Part shown: positions 6,414 through 10,105 of the stretch, one piece after another
How positions within the stretch are numbered: position 1 is the stretch's first letter
How the letters are laid out: each line of letters opens with the position of its first letter
Assembly: GCF_025965085.1 (NCBI RefSeq)
Contig: NZ_JAOPXP010000145.1
Coordinates: forward strand, 1 to 53,251
DNA: 53,251 bases
Origin: Marmoricola sp.
Lineage (GTDB): Bacteria > Actinomycetota > Actinomycetes > Propionibacteriales > Nocardioidaceae
Direction: 5' to 3'
The notes under the pieces: model-generated
What the model was told of the DNA's origin: nothing
The model's input: the letters and a program-made list of their open reading frames with translations, nothing else
Databases searched by the model: none
Made by a program: the position numbers and the translations under genes

Positions 6414-7027
6414 CGGGTTGCTCCGGAGTTGGCCTGGGTGCTGGCCTTCTTCCTACCGCCTTCGCGGGTCACGTTGGTGGAGGTGCCGGGGGTGTCGGTG
6501 CCCGAAGTCTTCTGGAGCTTCTTCGGAACCTTCGCGATCACGGTCTTCGGCTTGATCGATTCGGGGAGCTCGGAGGGCAGGGGGTTGATGCGGACGGCGT
6601 CGGCCGGGGAGGAGGGGGTGGGGTTGCCCAGGACGCGGCCGTCACCGATCCGGATGAACGCGGGCTGTGCGGGAGCCACCATGCCGAGCGCCTTCGCTGC
6701 GGACGCGAGCCGCTGGGGCTCCCGGAGCCTGTCCAGCTCCATGTTCAGCGACTGCTCCCTGGCGGTCAGGTCGTTCACCTGGCCCTGGAGGGCCGTGGCC
6801 TTGAAGGAGGCCTGCTGCATGTTGGTGTTGAACATCAGCAGGCCGACCACGCCGCCGGCCAGCATCACCAGGACGAGCACCGCGAAGGGCGTGCGCGCGG
6901 CCTGGGTGCGGCCGAGCTGGCGCCGCGGCGGGACCACGGTGAGGCGAGCACGCTCGACCGCTGCTTCGGCGAAGCGAGGGACGCGGGTGCGTGCCCCGGC
7001 CCTGGCTGAGTTGATCAAGCTGCTCAT
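6410..7027 (-). CDS. ftsL: FtsL-like septum formation protein
   Basis: Small bitopic divisome protein of 205 aa. A basic cytoplasmic N-terminus (about 1-45) is followed by one transmembrane helix ([21 protein letters not shown], about residues 47-67) and a short coiled-coil stretch rich in Gln/Leu. It ends in a Pro/Ser/Thr/Lys-rich tail. Sequence similarity in this family is low. The assignment rests on topology and on its place between rsmH and ftsI, where actinobacterial ftsL genes sit. The ATG overlaps the rsmH stop (ATGA). A longer upstream frame exists but is the rsmH shadow. Confidence 0.75.
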
Positions 7028-7989
7028 GCTGCGACCCCTGGGTTGGTGTTGACGCGTTCGACGGCGCGCAGCCGGACGGAGGCTGCGCGCGGGTTCTCTT
7101 CGATCTCCGCCGCGGAGGCCTTCTCCGCACCCCTGGTCAGGTTGCGAAGCGGCGGCTCGTGTCCGGCCGGTACGACGGGAAGGTCGTGGGGGACCCGCGT
7201 CGTCGTGCCGGCGGCGAAGGCGCCCTTGACGAGGCGGTCCTCGAGCGAGTGGTAGCTCATCACCACGACGCGGCCACCGACGCCGATCGAGGAGATCGCC
7301 GCGGGGATCGCACGGCGCAGCGCACCCAGCTCGTCGTTGACCTCGATGCGCAGGGCCTGGAAGGTGCGCTTGGCCGGGTGTCCGCCCGTACGCCGGGCCG
7401 GCGCGGGGATCGTGTCCCGCAGGAGCTCGACCAGCCGTGCCGAGTCGGTGAACGGCTCGGTCTCCCTGGCCCTGACGATCGCGCGGGCGATCTGGCGGGA
7501 GAACTTCTCCTCCCCGTAGCTGCGCAGGATGCGGGCGAGCTCGGCGGCCGAGTAGGTGTTGAGGACGTCGGCGGCGGTGGGTCCCTCGCTGTCGTCCATC
7601 CGCATGTCCAGCGGCGCGTTCTCGGCATAGGCGAAGCCGCGCTCGCGGACGTCGAGCTGCATGGAGGAGACGCCGAGGTCGAAGAGGATGCCGTCCGCGG
7701 ACTCGATGCCCAGATCGTCGAGCACGGCGGGAATCTCGTCGTACACCGCGTGCACGAGGGTGGTGCGGCCCTCGAAGGGAGCGAGGCGCGCGCCTGCCAG
7801 CTCCAGCGCGTGCGGGTCGCGGTCGACGCCGACGACGTGGGCCTGGGGGCACCGGTCGAGGACAGCCTCGGAGTGGCCGCCGAGGCCGAGGGTGGCGTCC
7901 ACGAAGACCGAGCCCGGGCTCTCGAGGGCAGGCGCCACCAGGGCGACGACCCGGTCGAGAAGCACCGGGACGTGGGTGGGAGTGGTCAT
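7024..7989 (-). CDS. rsmH: RsmH, 16S rRNA (cytosine-1402 N4)-methyltransferase
   Basis: SAM-dependent methyltransferase that modifies 16S rRNA C1402 near the P-site (the former MraW). The 321-aa product is normal size. Family motifs are [10 protein letters not shown] at the N-terminus, the SAM-binding [35 protein letters not shown], and [11 protein letters not shown] and [13 protein letters not shown] towards the C-terminus. The ATG start lies 12 nt after the 45-codon membrane-protein gene, and the stop overlaps ftsL (ATGA). Confidence 0.97.
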
Positions 7990-8001
7990 GGTCGAGAGGC
8001 C

Positions 8002-8139
8002 CTAGTTCCCGAGCCGGACCATGAGCATGAGAAGGAGTGCCACCACGCAGGACGTGGCCGCCGAGAAGAGCATCACGGCGAGGGAGTCGCGCACCTCGTG
8101 CCGGACCCGTCGTGCGGGTGTCACGGTGCTGCCGCTCAT
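8002..8139 (-). CDS. 45-aa single-pass membrane protein between mraZ and rsmH
   Basis: Unrecognised small protein of 45 aa. It has a polar basic N-terminus (to about residue 18), then one hydrophobic helix (LAVMLFSAATSCVVALLLMLMV, about 20-41) and a short RLGN tail. The ATG at 8139 is preceded by GAGGGG at a usable distance. The frame stays open upstream to a GTG at 8286 (94 aa), but that extension is low-complexity and lacks a good ribosome site. The gene ends 12 nt before rsmH, so it should be co-expressed with division genes. No function is inferred beyond a membrane location. Confidence 0.7.
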   Translation of the reverse strand: MSGSTVTPARRVRHEVRDSLAVMLFSAATSCVVALLLMLMVRLGN

Positions 8140-8278
8140 CGGTTTCGACCCCTCGAGTTGCTGTGCTGGGCTTGCGAGTTCTGGACGTGCGGTTCGGGCT
8201 TGGTGCTGCTGACGGGGATCACAGGGCCAGGTTCTCCGTCCGCTCGGCTCCCGGGTGGAGGTGGAGGGAAGCGACTCA

Positions 8279-8304
8279 TCTGACACCGGGGAAGGTGCGT
8301 CAGA
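8279..8304 (-). terminator. Hairpin downstream of mraZ (possible attenuator)
   Basis: The arms TCTGAC (8279-8284) and GTCAGA (8299-8304) are perfectly complementary. An inner ACC/GGT pair extends the stem. It lies about 90 bp after the mraZ stop and before the rest of the operon. There is no T-run, so a partial or processing role is only a possibility. Confidence 0.3.
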
Positions 8305-8391
8305 GGAATCTGTGGGAGGAGCGGACGCGAGCCTCGCCCTGTGATCACCGTTGTGGAGTTGTGCCGTGCGTGGAGACGTTGCGGTCCTGCG

Positions 8392-8820
8392 TCAGAAACC
8401 GGGGAAGATCTCTTCCTGGAGGTTGGCGAAGGCCTGCTCCTGGTCGGTCGTGTAGGCGTCCCACGAGCGGGGCTCCCAGATCTCGATCCGGTCGTAGATC
8501 CCGATGACCACGGCTTCCCGGTCGAGCCCGGCGTACTTCCGCAGCTCGGGGGTGATGGTGACGCGGCCCTGCTTGTCCGGCACCTGCTCCGATGCCAGGG
8601 CGAACAACATCCGGCCGTAGGCCCGCATGCGGGCGTCGGTCTGCGACGCGTTCTGGAACTTCTCGCTGAAGACGTGGAAGTCGGCCTTCGTGCGGATGTC
8701 GAGGGCACGTTCCTGACCTCTGGTGATCACCAGGCCCTCCTTCATCTCGTCGCGGAACTTGGCCGGGAGGAACAGGCGGCCCTTGTCATCGAGCTTCGGG
8801 GTGTAGGTGCCGGAGAACAT
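8392..8820 (-). CDS. mraZ: MraZ, transcriptional regulator of the dcw cluster
   Basis: AbrB-fold DNA-binding protein, normally a ring-shaped oligomer, that represses its own operon and lies first in dcw clusters. The 142-aa product has both MraZ half-repeats: the first with LDDKGRLFLPAKFRDEM (about residues 10-26) and the second with PDKQGRVTITPELRKYAGL (about 81-99), each holding the conserved DxxGR core. The ATG is preceded by GGGGAG at 7 nt. The phased GTGG boxes just upstream are the expected autoregulatory target. Confidence 0.97.
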   Translation of the reverse strand: MFSGTYTPKLDDKGRLFLPAKFRDEMKEGLVITRGQERALDIRTKADFHVFSEKFQNASQTDARMRAYGRMLFALASEQVPDKQGRVTITPELRKYAGLDREAVVIGIYDRIEIWEPRSWDAYTTDQEQAFANLQEEIFPGF

Positions 8821-8857
8821 GCGCTGCTCCCCTCACCCCCAGAACCGCTTGGTTCCT

Positions 8858-8932
8858 CCACTTCGCACCACTTTACTCCACATCCCTCCACCGTCAACCA
8901 CATTCGGCCCACTTCCCTCCCCCGTTCACCAC
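8858..8932 (-). promoter_or_regulatory. MraZ operator: array of phased GTGG boxes over the mraZ promoter
   Basis: On the minus strand GTGG occurs at 8858-8861, 8868-8871, 8878-8881, 8888-8891 and 8898-8901, exactly every 10 bp. Two more copies are at 8909-8912 and 8929-8932. MraZ proteins are known to bind short direct repeats spaced one helical turn apart upstream of their own gene, normally about three of them. Confidence 0.75.
8870..8897 (-). promoter_or_regulatory. mraZ (dcw) promoter
   Basis: TTGACG (8892-8897) and TAAAGT (8870-8875), read on the minus strand, are separated by 16 bp and fit a sigma-70-type promoter. The implied start of transcription is about 43 nt before the mraZ ATG. 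The hexamers are interleaved with the GTGG boxes, so bound MraZ would block RNA polymerase. Confidence 0.6.
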
Positions 8933-9079
8933 GATTTGCCTCCCTCCGCAGCCCTCGCGGGTCCAGACAGGGGCGCACAGCGCACAGGCCGAAACCGGCA
9001 CGACCTTCCACGCTCACGCCTCATGTGGTCCGATGGGCTTCACTGGACCGAGAGGCAGCGCCACACTCGGCGGGGCAAA

Positions 9080-10105
9080 GTGGTCGAAGAAGTGGGGTCA
9101 GAGGTGGGAGGACCAGGGACTCACGCAGGCAGTCGCTCGCCGGGCGGCGCCGACGTCGGTGAGGTGCGCGCGGTGGCGGAGCGCATCCAGGCCAACATCG
9201 CACGCGTCATCGAGGGGAAGCCGGAGGTCGCCCGGTCGGCGCTCGTGGTGCTGCTCGCCGGTGGGCACGTGCTCATCGAGGACGTCCCCGGTGTCGGCAA
9301 GACGATGCTGAGCAAGGCCCTCGCCCGCTCCATCGACTGCACCGTCCGCCGGATCCAGTTCACCCCCGACCTGCTGCCCTCCGACGTCACCGGGGTCTCG
9401 GTCTTCAACCAGGACACGCGGCAGTTCGAGTTCCGGCCCGGCGGCATCTTCGCCAACGTCGTGGTGGGTGACGAGATCAACCGGGCCAGTCCCAAGACGC
9501 AGGCCGCCATGCTCGAGTGCATGGAGGAGGCCCAGGTCACCGTCGACGGGACCACCTACTCCCTCGACTCCCCCTTCATGGTGATCGCCACCCAGAACCC
9601 CATCGAGATGGAGGGCACCTACGCACTGCCCGAGGCCCAGCGCGACCGGTTCATGGTGCGGCTCTCGATGGGCTACCCCGTGGAGACGGCGGAGATCGCG
9701 ATGCTCTCGGCCCGCGACGGCGTCAGCCCCCTCGACGAGCTCGAGCCGGTCACCGATGCCGCCGAGGTGCGCAAGCTCATCGAGATCACCGACGGCGTCC
9801 ACGTCTCGCCCCTCGTCCAGCAGTACGCCGTGGCGCTGGCGACCGCGACCCGGCGCTCGCCGCATCTCCGACTGGGTGCCTCGCCGCGGGCGACCCTGCA
9901 CCTCGTGCGGGCCTCCAAGGCGTGGGCGGCGATGCAGGGCCGCGAGTTCGTGCTGCCCGACGACATCCGCGACCTGGCGCCGCAGGTCCTGCCGCACCGG
10001 TTGCTACCGACGATGGAGGCCACGATGAGCGGCCGGCGTACGCGCGAGGTGGTGCAGCAGGTGCTCGCCCAGGTGCCGGTCCCGGCCGGTCCCGCCCGGT
10101 CCTGA
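9080..10105 (+). CDS. MoxR-family AAA+ ATPase
   Basis: AAA+ ATPase of about 341 aa, of the kind that acts as a chaperone with von Willebrand/DUF58 partners. It contains Walker A (EDVPGVGKTMLSKALARS), Walker B-like VVVGDEINRASPKTQAAMLECMEE, the sensor-1 segment FMVIATQNPIEMEGTYALPEAQRDRF, and a C-terminal lid (LGASPRATLHLVRASKAWA). The start is uncertain: in-frame GTG codons at 9080, 9092 and 9104 are all possible, and the frame is open back to 8807. It begins a MoxR-DUF58-transglutaminase set diverging from the dcw operon. Confidence 0.9.
   Translation: MVEEVGSEVGGPGTHAGSRSPGGADVGEVRAVAERIQANIARVIEGKPEVARSALVVLLAGGHVLIEDVPGVGKTMLSKALARSIDCTVRRIQFTPDLLPSDVTGVSVFNQDTRQFEFRPGGIFANVVVGDEINRASPKTQAAMLECMEEAQVTVDGTTYSLDSPFMVIATQNPIEMEGTYALPEAQRDRFMVRLSMGYPVETAEIAMLSARDGVSPLDELEPVTDAAEVRKLIEITDGVHVSPLVQQYAVALATATRRSPHLRLGASPRATLHLVRASKAWAAMQGREFVLPDDIRDLAPQVLPHRLLPTMEATMSGRRTREVVQQVLAQVPVPAGPARS

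Follow-up and report, generated by a model that had tools for sequence, protein, structure and literature searches.

An eight-position GTGG array over the mraZ promoter of a Marmoricola genome as a probable autoregulatory MraZ operator

In the window (the whole stretch of Marmoricola sp. DNA that was analyzed, 53,251 nt), mraZ lies on the minus strand at the head of the dcw cluster, and a row of GTGG boxes on the same strand lies directly upstream of it, over its predicted promoter. The genes and the promoter are located as follows:

7024–7989, minus strand: rsmH (mraW), which follows mraZ in the dcw cluster (369 bits to the Pfam MraW methylase family)
8392–8820, minus strand: mraZ, 142 aa with two MraZ domains, ATG at 8820 (Pfam MraZ, PF02381, 120.5 bits in two stretches, cut-off 23)
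8870–8897, minus strand: sigma-70-like mraZ promoter TTGACG-16-TAAAGT predicted by the promoter scan, inside the array

The gene product is a member of the MraZ family, both by the Pfam cut-off and by its fold. The AlphaFold2 model (mean pLDDT 84.7) matches the solved MraZ structures 1n0e, 9qlg, 9sz7, and 9r4j at Z 18.1–20.2 over 137–138 residues, with the next unrelated structure at Z 5.7, and the protein is 92% identical to MraZ of Marmoricola sp. URHB0036. mraZ and rsmH are spaced rather loosely here, with a gap of about 400 bp (7990–8391, minus strand) that contains a 94-aa open reading frame (8286–8002) with no Pfam match. A MoxR-type AAA ATPase gene starts divergently on the plus strand, and a moxR match divergent to mraZ was found in all 23 other genus loci compared, being partial in L095 and L106.

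Five minus-strand GTGG boxes are read directly from the sequence at 8858–8901 in exact 10-bp steps, and a sixth follows after an 11-bp step. The complete lattice upstream of mraZ has eight positions, of which seven carry the consensus GTGG and one the degenerate GGGG, and spans 75 bp with steps of 10, 10, 11, 10, 10, 10, and 10 bp from B8 to B1; the outermost GTGG lies two 10-bp steps upstream of B6, with the in-phase GGGG between them. The positions and their conservation at the same offset among 24 genomes of the genus are as follows:

8858–8861, minus strand: box B1, GTGG (exact in 22/24)
8868–8871, minus strand: box B2, GTGG, fused to the −10 hexamer in TAAAGTGG (exact in 24/24, partly by construction, as this box is the anchor of the count)
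8878–8881, minus strand: box B3, GTGG, within the promoter spacer (exact in 23/24)
8888–8891, minus strand: box B4, GTGG, just downstream of the −35 hexamer (exact in 21/24)
8898–8901, minus strand: box B5, GTGG, adjoining the upstream side of the −35 hexamer (exact in 18/24)
8909–8912, minus strand: box B6, GTGG, 11 bp upstream of B5 (exact in 4/24, at least 3 of 4 letters in 12/24)
8919–8922, minus strand: box B7, degenerate GGGG, in phase (GGGG in 15/24)
8929–8932, minus strand: box B8, GTGG, the most upstream (exact in 4/24, at least 3 of 4 letters in 9/24)

An earlier sequence-only reading had located the seven GTGG boxes and the 10-bp run of five correctly, and its assignment to the minus strand agrees with ours; it missed the in-phase GGGG at 8922–8919, so the lattice has eight positions.

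The −35 hexamer lies between B5 and B4, and the −10 hexamer is fused to B2. The 30 bp from B5 to B2 equal the sum of one box, the −35 hexamer, the 16-nt spacer, and the first four bases of the −10 hexamer, which couples the 10-bp lattice to the 16-nt promoter spacer. The mraZ promoter is the single sigma-70-like promoter in the 1,001 bp at 8300–9300, where shuffled sequences gave a mean of 0.0 (sd 0.2). With transcription predicted to start about 7 nt below the −10 hexamer, at 8863, the boxes would extend from about −69 to +6, and B1 would occupy about +3 to +6.

The spacing of the boxes, and not their count, departs from the chance expectation. In 200 dinucleotide-preserving shuffles of the whole window, the exact 10-bp GTGG run never exceeded three boxes (reached in 7/200) against five observed, and the run with 10- or 11-bp steps likewise reached at most three (in 28/200) against six observed. 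In 5,000 shuffles of the local G-rich 125 nt, the longest run was four, obtained twice with exact 10-bp steps and three times with 10/11-bp steps, whereas the number of GTGG alone was not extreme locally, since seven or more appeared in 427 of these shuffles. The local G-richness, by which four or five GTGG are the commonest outcome of the 125-nt shuffles from composition, is what favors an origin of the repeat by chance or slippage in G-rich promoter DNA with no operator function. Against this, the spacing is extreme, the spacers of the array differ from one another, so that it is not a simple tandem repeat, and comparable lattices are present throughout the family and in much of the phylum sample. 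We regard such an origin as extremely improbable, and for the core B1–B5 conservation rules it out.

The E. coli MraZ operator is reportedly the subject of work by Eraso et al. from 2014. In E. coli K-12 (NC_000913), we find three GTGGG at 10 bp before mraZ. The array in the window resembles this operator in having direct repeats at 10-bp spacing before mraZ and differs from it in the extent of the array, since the three E. coli boxes lie downstream of a −10-like hexamer (located by eye), whereas the eight positions here extend over the −35, the −10, and the start. In E. coli, according to the available part of PMC8475190, MraZ represses its own operon, and an mraZ mutant of M. genitalium shows increased expression of mraW (log2 3.02) and ftsZ (log2 2.34). 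The available part of PMC5282649 gives the Mollicutes MraZ site as (AAAGTGKN3)3 and describes MraZ as binding as an octamer. Cryo-EM entries of MraZ with its promoter were released in February 2026, one of them, 9sz7, on the 4-box promoter of M. genitalium, as far as the titles tell. The Mollicutes site shares with ours the GTG core, the 10-bp period, and the same MraZ fold; it differs in having three repeats in the written motif and four boxes in the title of 9sz7, and the AAA before the box is not strict in the window. Among the papers on MraZ that were listed, we recognized none on an actinobacterial MraZ operator, a result to which we give little weight.

The core of the lattice is conserved far beyond the genus. 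Of 180 distinct regions, 177 contain the element TANNGTGG, in which the −10 hexamer is fused to a box, within 200 nt upstream of mraZ, as do 16 of 28 phylum loci, and at least three phased GTGG were found in 166/180 distinct relatives and 18/28 phylum loci; four of the 28 phylum loci are without two strict boxes in phase. TTGAC precedes a box in 115/180 distinct regions. The distance between nearest GTGG neighbors is 10 bp in 508 cases, 11 bp in 18, and 9 bp in 5, with the next peaks at 3 bp (39 cases) and 6 bp (24 cases). Operators of other Nocardioidaceae and Actinomycetota share with the window the GTGG N6 lattice with TANNGTGG, often with TTGAC before a box, and differ in that most have three strict boxes (phylum and named set) or four (family).

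For a column-wise comparison, 178 of the 180 regions were aligned on TANNGT plus the box letters (L056 and L131 were unanchored), an anchoring that favors box-bearing regions. At offsets −10 and 0, where the latter is exact partly by construction, exact boxes occur in 23 and 24 of 24 genus regions, in 82 and 84 of 84 family regions, and in 67 and 69 of 70 further named loci. The box columns average 1.87 bits against 1.30 bits for the spacer columns, although the latter include the TTGAC of the −35 and the TA of the −10. A conserved 10-bp phase with drifting spacers, which the sequence-only reading had named as support for an operator, is therefore what the alignment gives. The same reading had counted a loss of phase in close relatives that keep the promoter against itself; the phase of the core is kept, while the upstream boxes keep their register in the genus and not their letters.

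The number of boxes changes with the taxonomic level. Counting strict GTGG on a 10/11-bp lattice with single degenerate connectors allowed, we obtained for the 24 genus genomes one box in 1, three in 1, four in 2, five in 11, six in 8, and seven in 1, the window, which has the highest count in the genus. In other genera of the family (89 genomes), there were two boxes in 3, three in 11, four in 59, five in 13, six in 2, and seven in 1. Unbroken runs in the phylum sample (28 loci) comprised one box in 4, two in 6, three in 15, and four in 3, and in the named set, which consists of the best 80 of 570 confirmed and overlaps the genus and family samples, one in 3, two in 3, three in 48, four in 12, five in 12, and six in 2. 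The commonest number is thus three in the phylum sample and the named set, four in the family, and five in the genus.

Some limits apply to these counts. The family sample comprises 89 upstream regions from 168 matching genomes of other genera, taken one per genus first and then mostly by high score, and is non-random; its lattice count excludes L111, whose start was not placed. The phylum sample consists of the 30 best-scoring loci for 115 matching genomes, with 28 counted, as L162 has too short an upstream region and the start of L164 was unrecognised (L164 has only degenerate boxes, by eye). In genome G016, the upstream stretch of L095, the first mraZ locus, was too short, and L107, the second fragment, took its place in the count; L095 has three overlapping triples, that is, five boxes. 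In L092, L093, L094, and L097, which were counted at six, the last GTGG stands 4 nt ahead of the start codon, possibly as part of a ribosome-binding sequence.

The length of the window's array is not unique. L224, from another genus, also has seven strict boxes, the last of which follows a degenerate connector. Six boxes in an unbroken 10/11-bp run are present in 4/24 genus genomes (the window, L084, L099, and L104) and in 2/89 other family genomes, so the window is tied; it is beaten on exact 10-bp runs, with a run of five in the window and in 15/24 of the genus, and six in L104 and one family genome. The sequence-only reading had stated that MraZ operators usually have about three repeats. 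This holds for E. coli K-12, for the Mollicutes motif, and for 15/28 phylum loci; it does not hold for the other Nocardioidaceae, where four is commonest (59/89), for the genus, where five is commonest (11/24), or for the 4-box cryo-EM entry. The window, with seven consensus boxes and one degenerate, lies above the three to four boxes that are usual, though not defining, and its length is the end of a clade-wide gradient and ordinary in kind. Since the number ranges from one to seven across the genus and family, the higher count is no bar to its membership among MraZ operators.

The upstream block B6–B8 behaves differently from the core. Relative to B5, the genus genomes have at −11 AGGG in 6, ATGG in 5, GTGG in 4, and GGGG in 3 of 24, and at −21 GGGG in 15/24 and an exact GTGG in 0/24; in the window, two of the three upstream positions read GTGG. 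The summed match at −11, −21, and −31 is 178 against 112.8 (sd 7.4) in shuffled sequences, and none of 2,000 shuffles was as high in any phase, in a test that treats related genomes as independent and in a G-rich region. Columns −20 to −18 have 1.5–1.75 bits in the genus. The closest relative by MraZ identity, L084, has GTGG at −11, GGGG at −21, and GGAG at −31, and the second-closest, L085, has GAGA at −11, GGGG at −21, and GTGG at −31.

Outside the genus, an exact GTGG at −41 from B2, the offset of B6, occurs in the family genomes L195, L208, L210, and L224, in four Subtercola (L049, L055, L060, and L062), and in one Gordonia (L071). In all anchored sets together, it is exact in 13/178 at −41, in 5 at −40, and in 2 at −42, with related genomes that are not independent. 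Among the 84 family genomes from other genera, −41 and −40 are level, with 4 exact boxes each. We know of no 11-bp step in the described MraZ operators. To judge from these alignments, the upstream block extends through the genus, mostly in degenerate form, and is clearest there, and the two-register extension is a new detail of an otherwise ordinary operator.

These figures support, without proving, a functional block, as the related genomes are not independent. In a serious alternative, to which we give a probability somewhat below even, the core B1–B5 alone would be the MraZ operator, and the upstream G-boxes would be inert G-rich sequence or belong to another regulator or promoter (MtrA, the divergent moxR promoter), a reading that overlaps our preferred one and denies just its upstream clause. 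It agrees with the upstream consensus boxes coming and going even between the closest relatives and with the genus consensus being degenerate at −11 and −21, with no exact GTGG at −21. According to the available part of PMC9602371, MtrA binds a 100-bp fragment upstream of mraZ in Dietzia, and by analogy it could co-occupy the mraZ upstream region here. However, the degenerate boxes stand in 10-bp phase after a common 11-bp step at a match that none of the 2,000 shuffles equaled, columns −20 to −18 are conserved, and the window has two full GTGG in the block. On balance, we consider it slightly more probable than not that B6–B8 are in use.

A third explanation, that the G-rich strand forms a G-quadruplex controlling mraZ transcription, has been proposed for S. 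aureus, where a G4 motif in the mraZ promoter region was reported and biophysically tested (PMC11796246, in its available part). The 300 nt upstream of the window's mraZ contain no canonical motif of four G3+ tracts with loops of 1–7, and with the count limited to this definition such a motif occurs within 200 nt in 17/180 distinct relatives and in 0/28 phylum loci. We rejected this explanation, which fails the G3+ motif test and appears very improbable.

In its own assembly (3.55 Mb in 243 contigs, 95.9% complete), the pattern GTGGN6GTGGN6GTGG is found solely in the mraZ array, as three overlapping matches, and the reversed control pattern occurs once; the strict three-box scan of the assembly revealed no MraZ target besides mraZ. 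The 24 genus genomes contain 97 strict triple matches, of which 63 (counted by hand) are at mraZ in 22/24 genomes, with no strict triple at mraZ in G021 and G022. The 34 triples elsewhere, against 71 for the reversed-pattern control, show no excess that would indicate extra MraZ targets in these genomes. Of 119 phylum genomes, four have no MraZ match (G219 and G303, of the same class, G269, and G296), and their triples (12, 3, 0, and 0) are likewise without excess over the control (26, 7, 0, and 0). Two of the MraZ-less phylum genomes are large assemblies of one genus with 100% estimated completeness, which suggests a real loss of mraZ in these two. Four phased GTGG are also present at G276:C1:1309655-1309688 and G264:C74:2822-2855 in other members of the phylum.

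Several observations concern the moxR side. Three GTGG at 12-bp spacing are located on the moxR strand of the window (9080–9107, plus strand), in frame and near the likely moxR start; the 12-bp step is not the MraZ phase, and they may be codons or a ribosome-binding sequence. Pairs or triples of GTGG N6 GTGG in the MraZ phase, on the moxR strand upstream of or around the moxR start, occur in L084, L085, L086, L087, L088, L089, L090, and L102, for example, GTGGgggaaaGTGG in L102 and GTGGggagaaGTGG in L085, and are possibly a second, weak candidate MraZ site linking moxR to MraZ in some relatives. Close to the putative moxR start, the genus members L091, L092, L093, L098, L100, and L101 share a recurring element GTT(G/C)ACTAGGGNCATG, which has a changed sequence in the window and the relatives closest to it.

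Taken together, the position before mraZ, the identity of the boxes, the promoter inside the array, the uniqueness in the genome, and the conservation make it very probable that the array is the autoregulatory operator of mraZ, with binding predicted from the DNA. In the mechanism we propose, MraZ oligomers would read the GTGG boxes as direct repeats that all face the same side of the helix, with one box in each turn. As B1–B5 span the −35, the spacer, the −10, and the start region, a bound oligomer would exclude RNA polymerase, and MraZ binding would repress mraZ and the dcw genes behind it in negative autoregulation. Since the box core and phase of the described MraZ systems, together with their protein family, recur here and the boxes lie on the promoter itself, the simplest reading is that RNA polymerase would be occluded.

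The boxes B6–B8 would form an auxiliary block beyond the 11-bp step, where a second oligomer or further subunits of an opened ring could dock, most likely strengthening or grading repression. A closed ring could hardly touch eight turns of straight DNA, which would call for two oligomers or an opened ring. The sequence-only reading had likewise suggested cooperative binding of MraZ rings or docking of more than one oligomer, with graded control of the cell-wall operon, which we retain as a hypothesis. More tentatively, and at a probability that we place well below even, the Marmoricola-like branch may have a two-register operator of five 10-bp boxes and three more after the 11-bp shift, on which two oligomers or one opened ring would load over 75 bp according to affinity, with selection keeping the GGGG and AGGG boxes weak and the cell-wall operon thereby repressed in a graded way over the MraZ concentration.

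Few bacterial gene clusters are as conserved as the one at whose head mraZ stands, and current structural work is asking how boxes arranged in a straight row can be read by a closed ring. A natural operator of eight positions that includes a shift in register offers a good substrate for distinguishing ring opening, two rings, and the use of four boxes, and the gradient in box number across related genera (commonest values of three, four, and five, with up to seven) could be related to the strength of repression.
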